Source: Gammaproteobacteria bacterium (GTDB lineage: Bacteria > Pseudomonadota > Gammaproteobacteria > JAJPIJ01). Taken from it: a DNA stretch of 64,000 nt. The stretch's first letter is position 1. Every line of letters begins with the position of its first letter. The stretch spans positions 20,245 to 84,244 of the forward strand of contig JAJPIJ010000044.1 in NCBI GenBank assembly GCA_021324815.1. The letters are read 5' to 3'. The notes beneath the pieces are model-generated. The model did no database searches and had not been told where the DNA came from. It saw nothing but the letters and a program-made list of their open reading frames with translations. Below are positions 7,335 through 64,000 of this stretch, piece by piece. The position numbers and the translations under genes are program-made.

Positions 7335-9626
7335 CTACGCCCCCGCGGAGGGATCCCGGGGGCGGTTGGGATTGATTTCCGTGATTTCCTCCTCCGGACC
7401 GCGATCATCGGCGGGCACGGAGCGCTCCTGGTAGGAATCATCCGCAAGGGATGGGGATTCGTCTTCCCGCGCGGCCTGAGGTTCCGCCGACTCCGTCCGG
7501 AAACGCGGATGCACCTCCGTGATCGCCTCGGCGTCATGTTCCGCATCCATTCCGGCTTGAGCCGGTCCTTCGCCGGCTGTGGCGGATTCTGATTCATGCA
7601 GGGGGATGGCGCGATCCCCGCCCTGACGTTCCGTGTGCATCTGCGGCCCCCGGTCCGCCTCGCGACGGCGCCGACGCCCCCCGCGGCCGCCACGCCGGCG
7701 GCGGCCGCCGCGTCGATGTTCCGAAACCTCCTCTTCTTCCGCCGCCCGTTCCGCCCGGACCTCGGAAGAGGGGGCGGGTGCGGCGGCTTGTTCCGCCGCC
7801 TTGGCGGTTTCGGGGCGGTGGCCTCCGCCACGATGCCTGCCGTCGCGGCCCGCCTTCGACGCGGCCGCGCGAGGCGGCCGGGAGGGGCGGGGGCGGCCCT
7901 CGGCCGGTGCAGTCTCGTGGTAACCCGCGTCATTGGCGGGCGCCAGGCCGAACAGCCGCGAGAAGAAGCGCTTGGTCGTTCCCCAGAGCCCTGCATCGAC
8001 GGCGGCCGTCGGCAGGGTTCGCGGCGGCAGCCGTTTGTGCACATCCTTGACCGCCGGCTCCTCGTGGAGCGGCTTCAAGGGTTGCGGCAACTCCGGCTGC
8101 TCAAGCGCGGGCGCGGCCACCAGCTTGTAGCTGCTTTCGCTGTGCGCCGAATGGCCGGTATCCTGTTCCCGCAGGCGTTCCAGCTTGAAGTGCGGCGTCT
8201 CCAGGTTGATGTTGGGCACCAGCACCACGCCAATCTTGTGCCGCTCCTCGATGCGGTGGATCTCGCGGCGCTTTTCGTTGAGCAGAAACGTGGCGGCGTC
8301 CACCGGCACCTGCGCCACCACCTTGACAGTGGACTCCTTCATGGCCTCCTCCTCGATGAGGCGGAGGATGGACAGCGACAGGGATTCCACGCTGCGGATG
8401 GCGCCGTTGCCGCTGCAGCGTGGGCAGACGATGTGGCTGAATTCCGCGAGCGAGGGACGCAGCCGCTGTCGCGACATCTCGAGCAGGCCAAAGCGCGAAA
8501 TCTTGCCGATCTGCACCCGCGCCCGATCGACCTTCAGGCATTCGCGCAGCCGGTTTTCCACGTTGCGCTGGTTGCGCGGGTTCATCATGTCGATGAAATC
8601 GATCACGATCAGCCCGCCGAGGTCGCGCAGGCGCAACTGCAGGGCAATCTCCTCGGCGGCCTCGAGATTGGTGTTGGTGGCGGTCTCCTCGATGTCGCCG
8701 CCGCGGGTGGCGCGCGCCGAATTGATGTCGATGGTGATCAGCGCCTCGGTCGGCTCGATGACGATGGAGCCGCCGGAGGGCAGGGTGACCTCGCGGTCAA
8801 ACGCCGATTCGATCTGGCTTTCGATCTGATAGCGCGTGAACAGCGGAACACTGTCGCTGTAGAGCTTGAGCTTTTTCAGGTTGTGCGGCATGACGTGCTG
8901 CATGAAGTCCGCCGCCTTCTCATACAGCGACTGGTCGTCGATGAGGATCTCGCCGATGTCGCTGCGCAGGTAATCCCGGATGGCGCGGATGATGACGTCG
9001 CGATCCTGGTAGATCAGGAACGGGGCGGGACGCTCGCGCGCCGCCTCCTCGATGGCCTGCCACAGCTTGAGCAGGTAATCGAAGTCCCACTGCAAATCCT
9101 CCGGCCCCTTGCCGACGCCGGCCGTGCGCAGGATGAGACTCATGCCCTCGGGGACGTTGAGGGCATTCAGGCTGTCGCGCGCCTCGTCGCGATCAGCGCC
9201 CTCGATCTGGCGGGAGACGCCGCCGCCGCGGGGGTTGTTGGGCATCAGCACCAGGTATCGCCCCGGCAGGCTGATGAAGGTGGTGAGCGCGGCGCCCTTG
9301 CTGCCGCGTTCGTCCTTTTCGACCTGGACGATCAGCTCCTGGCCTTCGCGCAGCAGATCGCGGATGTTCTGGCGGCCGCCGGCGGACTCGGAGAAATAGG
9401 CGCGGGAAACCTCCTTGAGCGGCAGAAAGCCGTGACGTTCGGCGCCATAATCGACGAACGCGGCCTCAAGGCTGGGCTCGATGTGGACAATGCGGCCTTT
9501 ATAGACATTGGACTTTCTCTGCTCCCGGCCGGTCGATTCGATATCCAGGTCGTAGAGCTTCTGTCCGTCCACCAATGCCACCCGCAACTCTTCCCGTTGA
9601 GTCGCGTTAATCAACATTCTTTTCAT
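7335..9626 (-). CDS. rne: Ribonuclease E
   Basis: [31 protein letters not shown]...[27 protein letters not shown] Zn-link; charged low-complexity C-terminal region; divergent to rluC. Confidence 0.95.
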
Positions 9627-60009: not shown

Positions 60010-61905
<1,896 letters not shown>

Positions 61906-62892
61906 TTACAGCCCGTCCAGCGGGCTTACTACGCCCTTGCCGCCGCGATTGAGGACATGAGTATAAATCATCGTTGTACTGACATCAGAGTGACCCAACA
62001 ACTCCTGTACCGTGCGGATATCGTAGCCACTGCGCAACAAATGCGTGGCGAAGGAATGTCGCAGCGCGTGCGTAGTCACCGCTTTTGCAATACCGGCCTC
62101 CTGTGCTGCGCGTTTCACCGCCCGTTGAAACGCCTGTTCGTGTGTATGATGCCGCCGCCGTATCCGGCTGCGGGGATCAACAGACAATACCCTTGAAGGG
62201 AATACCCATTGCCAGGCCCATTCCGTGCCCGCCTTGGGATATTTTCTGCTCAATGCCTCGGGAAGATGCACGCCAGGAAGGCCGGAATCACGATCGCTTT
62301 CGAATAAAGTGCGCACATGTCGCAGATGTTCGCGCAAAGTGGAAACCAACACTTCAGGCAGCATGGTCACGCGATCCTTGCCGCCCTTGCCATCGCGGAC
62401 GATGAACTCGCGGCGATCAAAATCCACATCCTTGACGCGCAACCGGACACACTCCATCAACCGCATGCCCGTGCCATACATCATCTGCGCCATGAGCGCG
62501 TGCGTGCCTTCCATGCATGCCAACAGCCGGGCCACCTCCCGGTCGCTCAGGACCACCGGCAACCGTCTTGGTTTCTGCGCCCTTTCAATCTCACTCAACC
62601 AAGGCATCTCCTGCCTGAGCACCTCTTTATAAAGAAACAACAATGCGGACAAGGCCTGGTTTTGCGTTCCCGCGGATACATTCTTGTGTACCGCCAGATC
62701 ACTCAGAAACGCCGTGACTTCAGCCGCACCCATATCTTTGGGATGCCTCTTGCCATGAAACAGGATGTAACGCCTGATCCAATCGAGGTAACTGCGTTCC
62801 GTTCGCAAACTGTAATGCTTGAAGCGAATACGGGCCCTGACCTCATCCAGAAAACGGAGTTTGGGGGGATTTTGTAAGGGCGATATTTGCAC
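61906..62892 (-). CDS. intI: Integron-type tyrosine recombinase (IntI-like integrase)
   Basis: RTERSYLDWIRRYILFHGKRHP; GTGMRLMECVRLRVKDVDF; IntI-type insert ALSRKYPKAGTEWAWQWVFPS; HALRHSFATHLLRSGYDIRTVQELLGHSDVSTTMIYTHVLNRGGKGVVSPLDGL. Confidence 0.9.
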   Translation of the reverse strand: MQISPLQNPPKLRFLDEVRARIRFKHYSLRTERSYLDWIRRYILFHGKRHPKDMGAAEVTAFLSDLAVHKNVSAGTQNQALSALLFLYKEVLRQEMPWLSEIERAQKPRRLPVVLSDREVARLLACMEGTHALMAQMMYGTGMRLMECVRLRVKDVDFDRREFIVRDGKGGKDRVTMLPEVLVSTLREHLRHVRTLFESDRDSGLPGVHLPEALSRKYPKAGTEWAWQWVFPSRVLSVDPRSRIRRRHHTHEQAFQRAVKRAAQEAGIAKAVTTHALRHSFATHLLRSGYDIRTVQELLGHSDVSTTMIYTHVLNRGGKGVVSPLDGL

Positions 62893-63003
62893 GCGCCGTG
62901 TTTATATTTACAAAGGCTTATTATTCATACAATTACGATTGATGTGCCAGATTATGCGGCGTACAATGCCAGATTATATGTCAGAAGTGAAATCCAATTT
63001 ATA

Positions 63004-63297
63004 GATGGCGCGGCGCGTGCGCCTGGGTCCGCTACGCGGACATACGGCGCACGAGCGTAGCGGAGGGGCTTTCGATGCACGTCTGCGATAAGTTCAAGGA
63101 GGCCGCCTTGGCCAACCCCAGTACGCGCCGCGCCATCGGAACGGAGTTGAGCCCCTCACTCGGGAGGCCGGCGCACGCGCCGGCCATCCCTGCGTTCGAG
63201 TCGGCACCGCGGGCTGCGCCCGCGGCTGCGGCCCGTGCGGCTTCGTGGCCAAGCCAGCTTGCCACTTCGCCGCAGGGCTGCCGCTCAACTCCGTTCC
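63004..63297. repeat. Dense palindrome field between intI and the HTH/GIY-YIG ORF, possible att-like region
   Basis: 15-bp IR 63004-63018/63123-63137; 15-bp IR 63138-63152/63283-63297 with GTTGAGC/GCTCAAC core-like ends; hairpins 63016-63053, 63166-63185, 63207-63225. Confidence 0.65.
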
Positions 63298-63307
63298 GTT
63301 CGGCGTC

Positions 63308-63916
63308 ATGAGGCTTGGCGTGGCAAGCGACGATTACGTCTCGATCAAGGAGCTCGCGCAGCGTTTGGGGATGGATCGTTCCCATGCGCGGCGTTACGTC
63401 TTGAGGTTGGGCTACTCGTTCCACAAGCGGCGCACGGCAGACTCTGGTAGCCAATTAACCCTCTGCGTAACTGGCGCGGAGGCCGATGCAATCGCGTCCC
63501 AGCGAGCGGAGAAGGGCTTCATTGCGTCGACGGTGGTCACCGTATCCGATGTCGGCGTCTTCTATGTCATCCAGCTCGTGCCCGACCTTGATCCGAAGCG
63601 GCTGAAGCTCGGATTCGCAGAGAGTTTGGAACAGAGGCTTTCGCAACACCGGACTGCTGCACCAACTGCACGCGTGCTGCGGGCGTGGCCTTGCAAGCGC
63701 TCCTGGGAACTGACCGCGATGGATGCTCTGACGCGCCAAGGGTGTCGGCTCATACTCAATGAAGTCTTTGAGTGTGATGAACCTGAGGCGTTGATTAGGC
63801 GCGGCGACGCTTTCTTCAGCATGCTTCCGGCACCTGACGTTCGTGCACCGCTTGCAAGCGTCTCGCCGTTGAACTCAGTAGCACATGATCGCGTGAGCGG
63901 CCGGACACATCGGTAA
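63308..63916 (+). CDS. HTH + GIY-YIG-like domain protein
   Basis: YVSIKELAQRLGMDRSHARRYVLRLGYS (HTH) and VGVFYVIQLVPDLDPKRLKLGFAESLEQRLSQHRTAAPTARVLRAWPCKRSWELTAMDAL...NEVFEC (GIY-YIG-like spacing). Confidence 0.6.
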   Translation: MRLGVASDDYVSIKELAQRLGMDRSHARRYVLRLGYSFHKRRTADSGSQLTLCVTGAEADAIASQRAEKGFIASTVVTVSDVGVFYVIQLVPDLDPKRLKLGFAESLEQRLSQHRTAAPTARVLRAWPCKRSWELTAMDALTRQGCRLILNEVFECDEPEALIRRGDAFFSMLPAPDVRAPLASVSPLNSVAHDRVSGRTHR

Positions 63917-63938
63917 CAAAATAGTCCGGAGACATGGG

Positions 63939-64000
63939 TTACACCTTGTGGCGCTTCAATCTGCCATATTCGTCCTCAATACGCATGTGTCGTTCGTGCA
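63939..64000 (-). mobile_element. Possible IS481-like element end with transposase C-terminus, truncated by window edge
   Basis: Minus-strand reading HERHMRIEDEYGRLKRHKV* followed by TGTAACCCATGTCTCCGGACTATTTTGTTACCGATGTG, resembling termini recalled from IS481 elements. Confidence 0.35.

Follow-up and report, generated by a model that had tools for sequence, protein, structure and literature searches.

A putative gene-less integron cassette with two nested left arms in its recombination site, adjacent to intI in a gammaproteobacterial contig

Within the 64,000-nucleotide stretch of DNA analysed here (the window), positions 63005-63298 quite probably form one complete integron cassette without a convincing gene, standing at attI beside a full-length intI and consisting mostly of its own recombination site, which has two nested left arms. 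The boundaries of this unit (cassette 1), both of its arms, a layout that is conserved and covaries, and relatives inserted at matching boundaries, in arrays as well as outside them, can be read from the sequence itself. The dependence of these insertions on IntI, the strand used, the role of the outer arm as a competing fold and the activity of the GAT core are what we infer. The cassette with a composite attC is novel as a variant and not as a kind of system. The features are collected in Table 1, where, as in the text, an arrow marks the crossover.

Table 1. Features of the integron locus in the window
Feature	Position	Strand	Basis
intI, integron integrase, 328 aa, full length	61906-62892	-	TIGR02249 and 2A3V matches
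attI, 3' part, ending at crossover G 63004; outer limit undefined	62950-63004	+	conserved block, attI ends of relatives
Core site at attI/cassette junction, G↓ATGGCG; cassette start complementary to both R'' sites	63004-63018	+	
Cassette 1, mobile unit, 294 bp, no credible gene	63005-63298	+	joined ends exactly reverse-complementary to 63123-63152; homologous G031 cassette; relatives with the same boundaries
Outer left arm of composite attC	63123-63152	+	30/30 pairs with circular joint; covariation in 8 family members
Central palindrome GGCCGGCGC-AC-GCGCCGGCC	63166-63185	+	indel unit within family
Inner left arm	63182-63206	+	17 Watson-Crick pairs with L' and circular R'
Hairpin CCGCGGGC-TGC-GCCCGCGG, in loop between L'' and L'	63207-63225	+	
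Shared right arm: L' TGCCGCTCAAC (63279-63289), spacer TCCGTTCC, R' G↓TTCGGC (63298-63304)	63279-63304	+	
Cassette 2 ORF, ATG at 63308, helix-turn-helix-like N-terminus	63308-63916	+	39% identical G172 homologue; weak Pfam matches
Repeat end, probably IS; contig break	63899-64000		identical copies at ends of C4 and C50

The integrase gene and attI

The first-pass annotation had placed the palindromes beside an integron integrase gene, and the adjacent gene indeed encodes a full-length member of the IntI family. Its product scores 487 bits against TIGR02249 (cut-off 265) and 322 bits against 2A3V across residues 13-326, and it is the sole gene above the family cut-off in the source genome. Directly downstream of intI, in the same direction and after a gap of 6 bp, lies a gene that is ParE/GyrB-like by sequence only (topoisomerase, 60010-61899, minus strand).

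The attI site adjoining intI is recognised from a conserved block and from the attI ends of relatives. Window positions 62950-63012 have relatives at about 79% identity in three other genomes, in which the attI-like block is followed by GTTGGGC, GTTAGCA or GTTAGCG and then by an ORF; in G166 the block is followed by cassettes with attC matches. The attI of intI-bearing relatives ends in a TCTAYTTNTAG↓TTRGRC-like sequence. From these block ends and attI ends the crossover G is therefore placed at 63004, where it is followed by ATGGCG in place of TTRRRY. Blocks resembling 62950-63012 and followed by an ORF were noted at L120 (G001:C15:102980), L119/L134 (G166:C41:39543) and L121 (G116:C23:18166). 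They have no adjacent intI where this was checked, and no intI was detected in G001 and G166 at E<=1e-25. Three attC matches lie downstream of the block in G166.

Limits and content of cassette 1

On the right, cassette 1 ends at G63298, after which cassette 2 starts. The right half, CTCAAC-TCCGTTCC ahead of GTTCGGC (63298-63304), is of the same type as CTCAAC-TCCATTAC-GTTAGGG in G172, and three bases beyond GTTCGGC stands the ATG of the cassette 2 ORF. The limits 63005-63298 thus follow from the attI crossover together with the right half and cassette 2. The core sites are accordingly G↓ATGGCG at attI (63004-63010) and G↓TTCGGC (63298-63304), with candidate R'' sites at 63131-63137 and 63182-63188.

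The cassette 2 ORF has weak Pfam matches, all below the cut-off, and its homologue in G172 lies among attC matches in an attC-bearing array; neither similar DNA nor the cassette 2 protein was found among plasmids. Its final codons fall within the IS-like repeat end, which truncates cassette 2 and closes the contig. Up to position 64000 the window shows cassette 1 in full and the beginning of cassette 2, and the array is unreadable further on because the window stops at the contig end inside the repeat. The same genome has an attC match of 25.7 bits (L131, G000:C13:572-664) close to the beginning of a different contig, which opens with an apparent IS3-type transposase gene; this match may be a detached piece of the array.

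As to protein genes, cassette 1 holds just ORFs running through the attC, one of which was tested and gave no family match; a very small gene could still lie within it. Some gene-less cassettes are known to carry promoters or regulatory RNAs (PMC8876359), and the palindromes might act in transcription or as RNA (terminator, promoter or small RNA) on a gene-less cassette, which would be compatible with the explanation favoured here. We think such a role very improbable, since an Rfam search gave no match, since the single promoter-like match in 62800-63400 lies in attI and no terminator-like site lies inside the cassette, and since the conserved parts are the recombination arms.

The palindromes as two nested arms

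At least five inverted repeats had been reported within these 294 bp, and all of them are present. They go beyond chance expectation: in 62800-64000 the longest inverted repeat without a mismatch measures 16 nt, compared with at most 13 and usually 9-10 in 200 dinucleotide-preserving shuffles. In addition to the central palindrome and the loop hairpin there are GATGGCGCGGCGCGT (63004-63018 with 63123-63137, 15/15 paired), GGAACGGAGTTGAGC (63138-63152 with 63283-63297, 16/16 once extended to 63137 and 63298) and an imperfect nested palindrome at 63016-63053. The two 15-bp pairs abut at 63137/63138. When the cassette is made circular, joining 63283-63298 to 63005-63018, the joint GCTCAACTCCGTTCC-G↓ATGGCGCGGCGCGT, also written GCTCAACTCCGTTCCG↓ATGGCGCGGCGCGT, forms an uninterrupted 30-bp inverted repeat with 63123-63152, with 30/30 pairs. 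The two pairs are best described as halves of one predicted 30-bp stem, opened at the crossover.

GTTGAGC and GCTCAAC, which terminate one repeat, had been taken for inverted core-site halves in outward order. They correspond instead to L'' and L' boxes, since in related attCs L'' reads GTTcGAG.. and L' reads ..CTCAAC, in the same order, and this match rules them out as R boxes. The outward order is explained because any integrated cassette reads G↓TTRRRY ... RYYYAAC-spacer-L'' ... L'-spacer-G↓. An inverted cassette remnant becomes unnecessary with this reading, and a degraded cassette junction is not indicated either, as the same layout is conserved in other genomes and is therefore not decay. 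Apart from the resemblance of the two heptamers to outward core sites, decay or inversion would account for the failure of the generic attC model at cassette 1; against the order of L'' and L' in related attCs, a conserved and covarying layout and intact boundaries on both sides, we regard it as hardly credible.

In its sequence the attC is composite, with two nested left arms and one shared right arm, for which the left arms would compete. The outer arm comprises R'' CGCCATC (63131-63137), spacer GGAACGGA and L'' GTTGAGC (63146-63152), and has neither extrahelical bases nor unpaired spacers. The inner arm comprises R'' GGCCATC, spacer CCTGC and L'' GTTcGAGtCGGCA, and aligns with GTCCAAC-TCTC-GTTCGAGCGGCA of G031; its pairing of GTTcGAGtCGGCA with TGCCGCTCAAC leaves two extrahelical bases and unpaired spacers, as in an attC. 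Every pair in both arms is Watson-Crick. Calculated ssDNA energies for the bottom strand of the circular form, without protein, are -95 kcal/mol for the outer stem and -70 kcal/mol for the inner stem. Of the earlier interpretation, the IntI locus and the attC-like palindromes hold, and a non-canonical ssDNA hairpin substrate for the integrase is likely.

The site departs from the consensus R'' RYYYAAC and R' GTTRRRY: the integrated R' GTTCGGC has one mismatch, the inner R'' GGCCATC is two positions off, and the core at attI is G↓ATGGCG. A covariance search for attC at the locus had been proposed. The model R1, built from 25 textbook attCs in related intI loci, finds 201 sites among 100 related loci, and in the window its best match (4.2 bits) lies elsewhere, so that the attC of cassette 1 is missed. 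In a simple attC profile the shared right arm is the top-scoring right half of the window and the inner site ranks second with 29.5; the profile alone is not decisive because a chance site reaches 30.4. A split-joint scan of the loci gave many matches at two mismatches, and the order of elements that it detects is common to any cassette; near-exact arms on both sides occurred only in the window, in G031 and in an ordinary attC array (L052).

Related cassettes in other genomes

Comparison of the locus in relatives, also suggested at first pass, uncovered a family of such cassettes. The integrase of G031 is 63% identical, and the locus there is split over two contigs that share a 99-base overlap. 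The attI-proximal cassette of G031 aligns with cassette 1 from end to end (start, outer arm, central palindrome, inner arm and right arm), and its arm sequences differ from those of the window and yet stay complementary. The distance from outer arm to right arm is 148 nt in both.

A second model, R2, was built from four family members with the window left out. On the 64 kb it finds cassette 1 at 34.2 bits (E 8.8e-6), the next best match scoring 14.4. Searches of 369 genomes with the G031 cassette and with R2 matched the window, G031 (three contigs), G176, G071 (three contigs), G313, G029 and, weakly, G252 (28.5 bits); a phylum-wide draw of 399 genomes with R2 added no member. Two further genomes, G215 and G022, gave weak R2 matches that resemble coding sequence; these were set aside. 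In G029 and G313, both with a family copy, no intI was found at E<=1e-25, one of these genomes being just 78% complete.

Eight members from seven genomes retain the outer arm, with changes that are paired. In the alignment of these eight related sequences 94.5% of cells are paired and four pairs have changed on both sides; the covariation score of 0.242 compares with 0.142 for shuffled alignments (reached in 2/500) and at most 0.107 when slid. The left arm of the window fits its own right arm best, with 16 against at most 11 for the others. Covariation in eight related sequences is support for a conserved pairing, short of proof. These data bear on the possibility that cassette 1 is an ordinary gene-less cassette in which the inner attC alone works, and that the outer arm is a by-product, without a role, of template switching that perfected a quasi-palindrome. 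Hallmarks of an attC are confined to the inner arm, the outer stem is a copy without any mismatch, and some family copies have lost the loop or the central palindrome (the latter is missing from the G031 C71 copy), and we take this as a serious possibility, although one we hold for less than probable; the paired changes and the constant 148-nt distance speak against it.

Two minor features of the G031 copies may be mentioned. The copies L172 (G031:C71:7253-7304) and L133 differ by a stretch of 31 nt that includes the central palindrome (GTTGTCCGGCGCTACGCGCCGTCCAACTCTC): one copy has it and the other lacks it. This stretch is bounded by two GTT triplets and looks as though it had been excised there. 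In L133 the first cassette has a small ORF (MSIDRITGFDSRNRDGAKRA..) similar to the final part of a different gene of that array, at about 8020-8084 on the minus strand.

Copies outside arrays and the core triplet

Besides the window, one genome has a relative of cassette 1 at attI. Two have relatives in arrays, where the G031 C71 copy immediately follows a canonical attC and the G252 copy follows an attC, and G071, a genome that carries intI, has two relatives outside arrays. One of the G071 copies interrupts an IS200-type tnpA at G↓TT. Across the flanks CAGCGG and GTTCGGGAGCTG the reading frame continues as GDVGQR-VRELVQQ, and the product of the joined parts scores 71 bits against PF01797 (66 for the right part alone). 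The other lies at AACTGAGC↓GATGGG, i.e. at G↓AT, and six uninterrupted homologues of its target, from G071 and relatives, align over the junction without a gap there. Both copies have the ends predicted for the window cassette, after the G of GTT or GAT, which is in accord with the GWT pattern at secondary sites of integron integrases (PMC4618277), and we infer that IntI made these insertions. The two G071 copies, outside arrays and after the G of GTT and of GAT, recall the secondary sites used by integron integrases (GWT pattern in PMC4618277; attG in PMC12901181 and PMC12444791); those sites are targets, while in cassette 1 GAT sits in the cassette's own core.

Strong palindromes, copies outside arrays, one of them inside an IS200-type tnpA, and some host genomes without a detected intI could also suggest a non-integron hairpin element, e.g. 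of IS200/IS605 type or REP-like, that landed beside intI. We consider this very improbable, as the ends are cassette boundaries at attI (window and G031) and after attCs (G031 C71 and G252), insertion is after the G of GTT or GAT, the right and inner arms are attC-like, and the tnpA is a target, interrupted in frame.

In cassette 1 GAT stands at 63004-63006 and ATC at 63135-63137 and 63186-63188, where GTT and AAC are expected. A base-calling error is unlikely because the change is concordant at three places. The weaker relative G252 likewise has a GAT core (G↓ATGGGC after an attC, R'' GTCCATC). Conservation of attC has been described as confined to AAC and GTT (PMC2727003); among our model-aligned attCs AAC occurs in 148/150 and GTT in 145/150, the other five having GTT one to three bases off, and these rates are biased in that the aligning model was trained on these triplets. 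On the reading given here, the GAT core of cassette 1 would be recombinationally active.

Proposed mechanism and comparison with known sites

In the mechanism that we propose for cassette 1 as a mobile integron cassette, the joined cassette ends would pair with either the outer arm, perfectly over 30 bp, or the inner arm. The inner fold would have the extrahelical bases and unpaired spacers of working attC sites, IntI would bind the folded bottom strand in this conformer, and strand exchange after the core G would join the cassette to attI. The bulge-less outer conformer would compete with the inner fold and would itself recombine poorly or lack polarity. An attC lacking both extrahelical bases and unpaired spacers was found to be drastically impaired for both strands (PMC2727003), and since the outer fold has neither, the outer arm may damp or depolarise recombination. 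Alternatively, it may aid extrusion of the hairpin from double-stranded DNA.

With integron attC sites (RYYYAAC-L''...L'-GTTRRRY, folded bottom strand; PMC2727003, PMC12901181) cassette 1 shares the order R''-spacer-L''...L'-spacer-R', the extrahelical bases of the inner L'', the unpaired inner spacers and the adjacent intI and attI. It is unlike them in having two nested left arms per right arm, a stem that runs past the R boxes into the cassette start, and a GAT/ATC core, and in being missed by a generic attC model. ORF-less cassettes have been described (PMC6557892, PMC11014356, PMC8876359), and cassette 1 is similar in having no convincing gene and in standing first at attI; those are said to bear a classical attC and are discussed as carriers of promoters or RNAs, whereas cassette 1 is mostly a recombination hairpin with a composite attC.

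It is possible, in a broader reading that we offer tentatively and find rather doubtful, that gene-less, nearly all-hairpin cassettes moved by IntI are a miniature mobile element, that the mutually exclusive left arms act as its switch, one fold recombining with polarity and the other being inert or non-polar, and that one lineage uses GAT/ATC for the near-invariant GTT/AAC and still inserts. Judging from the family, there may be cassettes that survive as little more than recombination sites and can also land outside arrays. Recognition of attC sites goes by their fold. The family's nested arms, and in one member the GAT core, escape R1 and may escape similar tools too, and its members are natural variants for testing the effect of competing folds and of the core triplet on cassette mobility.

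A repeat of about 145 nt, resembling the region before the attI core of G071 (AGGGGG..AACAAGTTAG), occurs at scattered positions in G071 and in related genomes (G071:C2:17288, C40:193-462, G201 and other relatives). One copy of it is the target of a family cassette.
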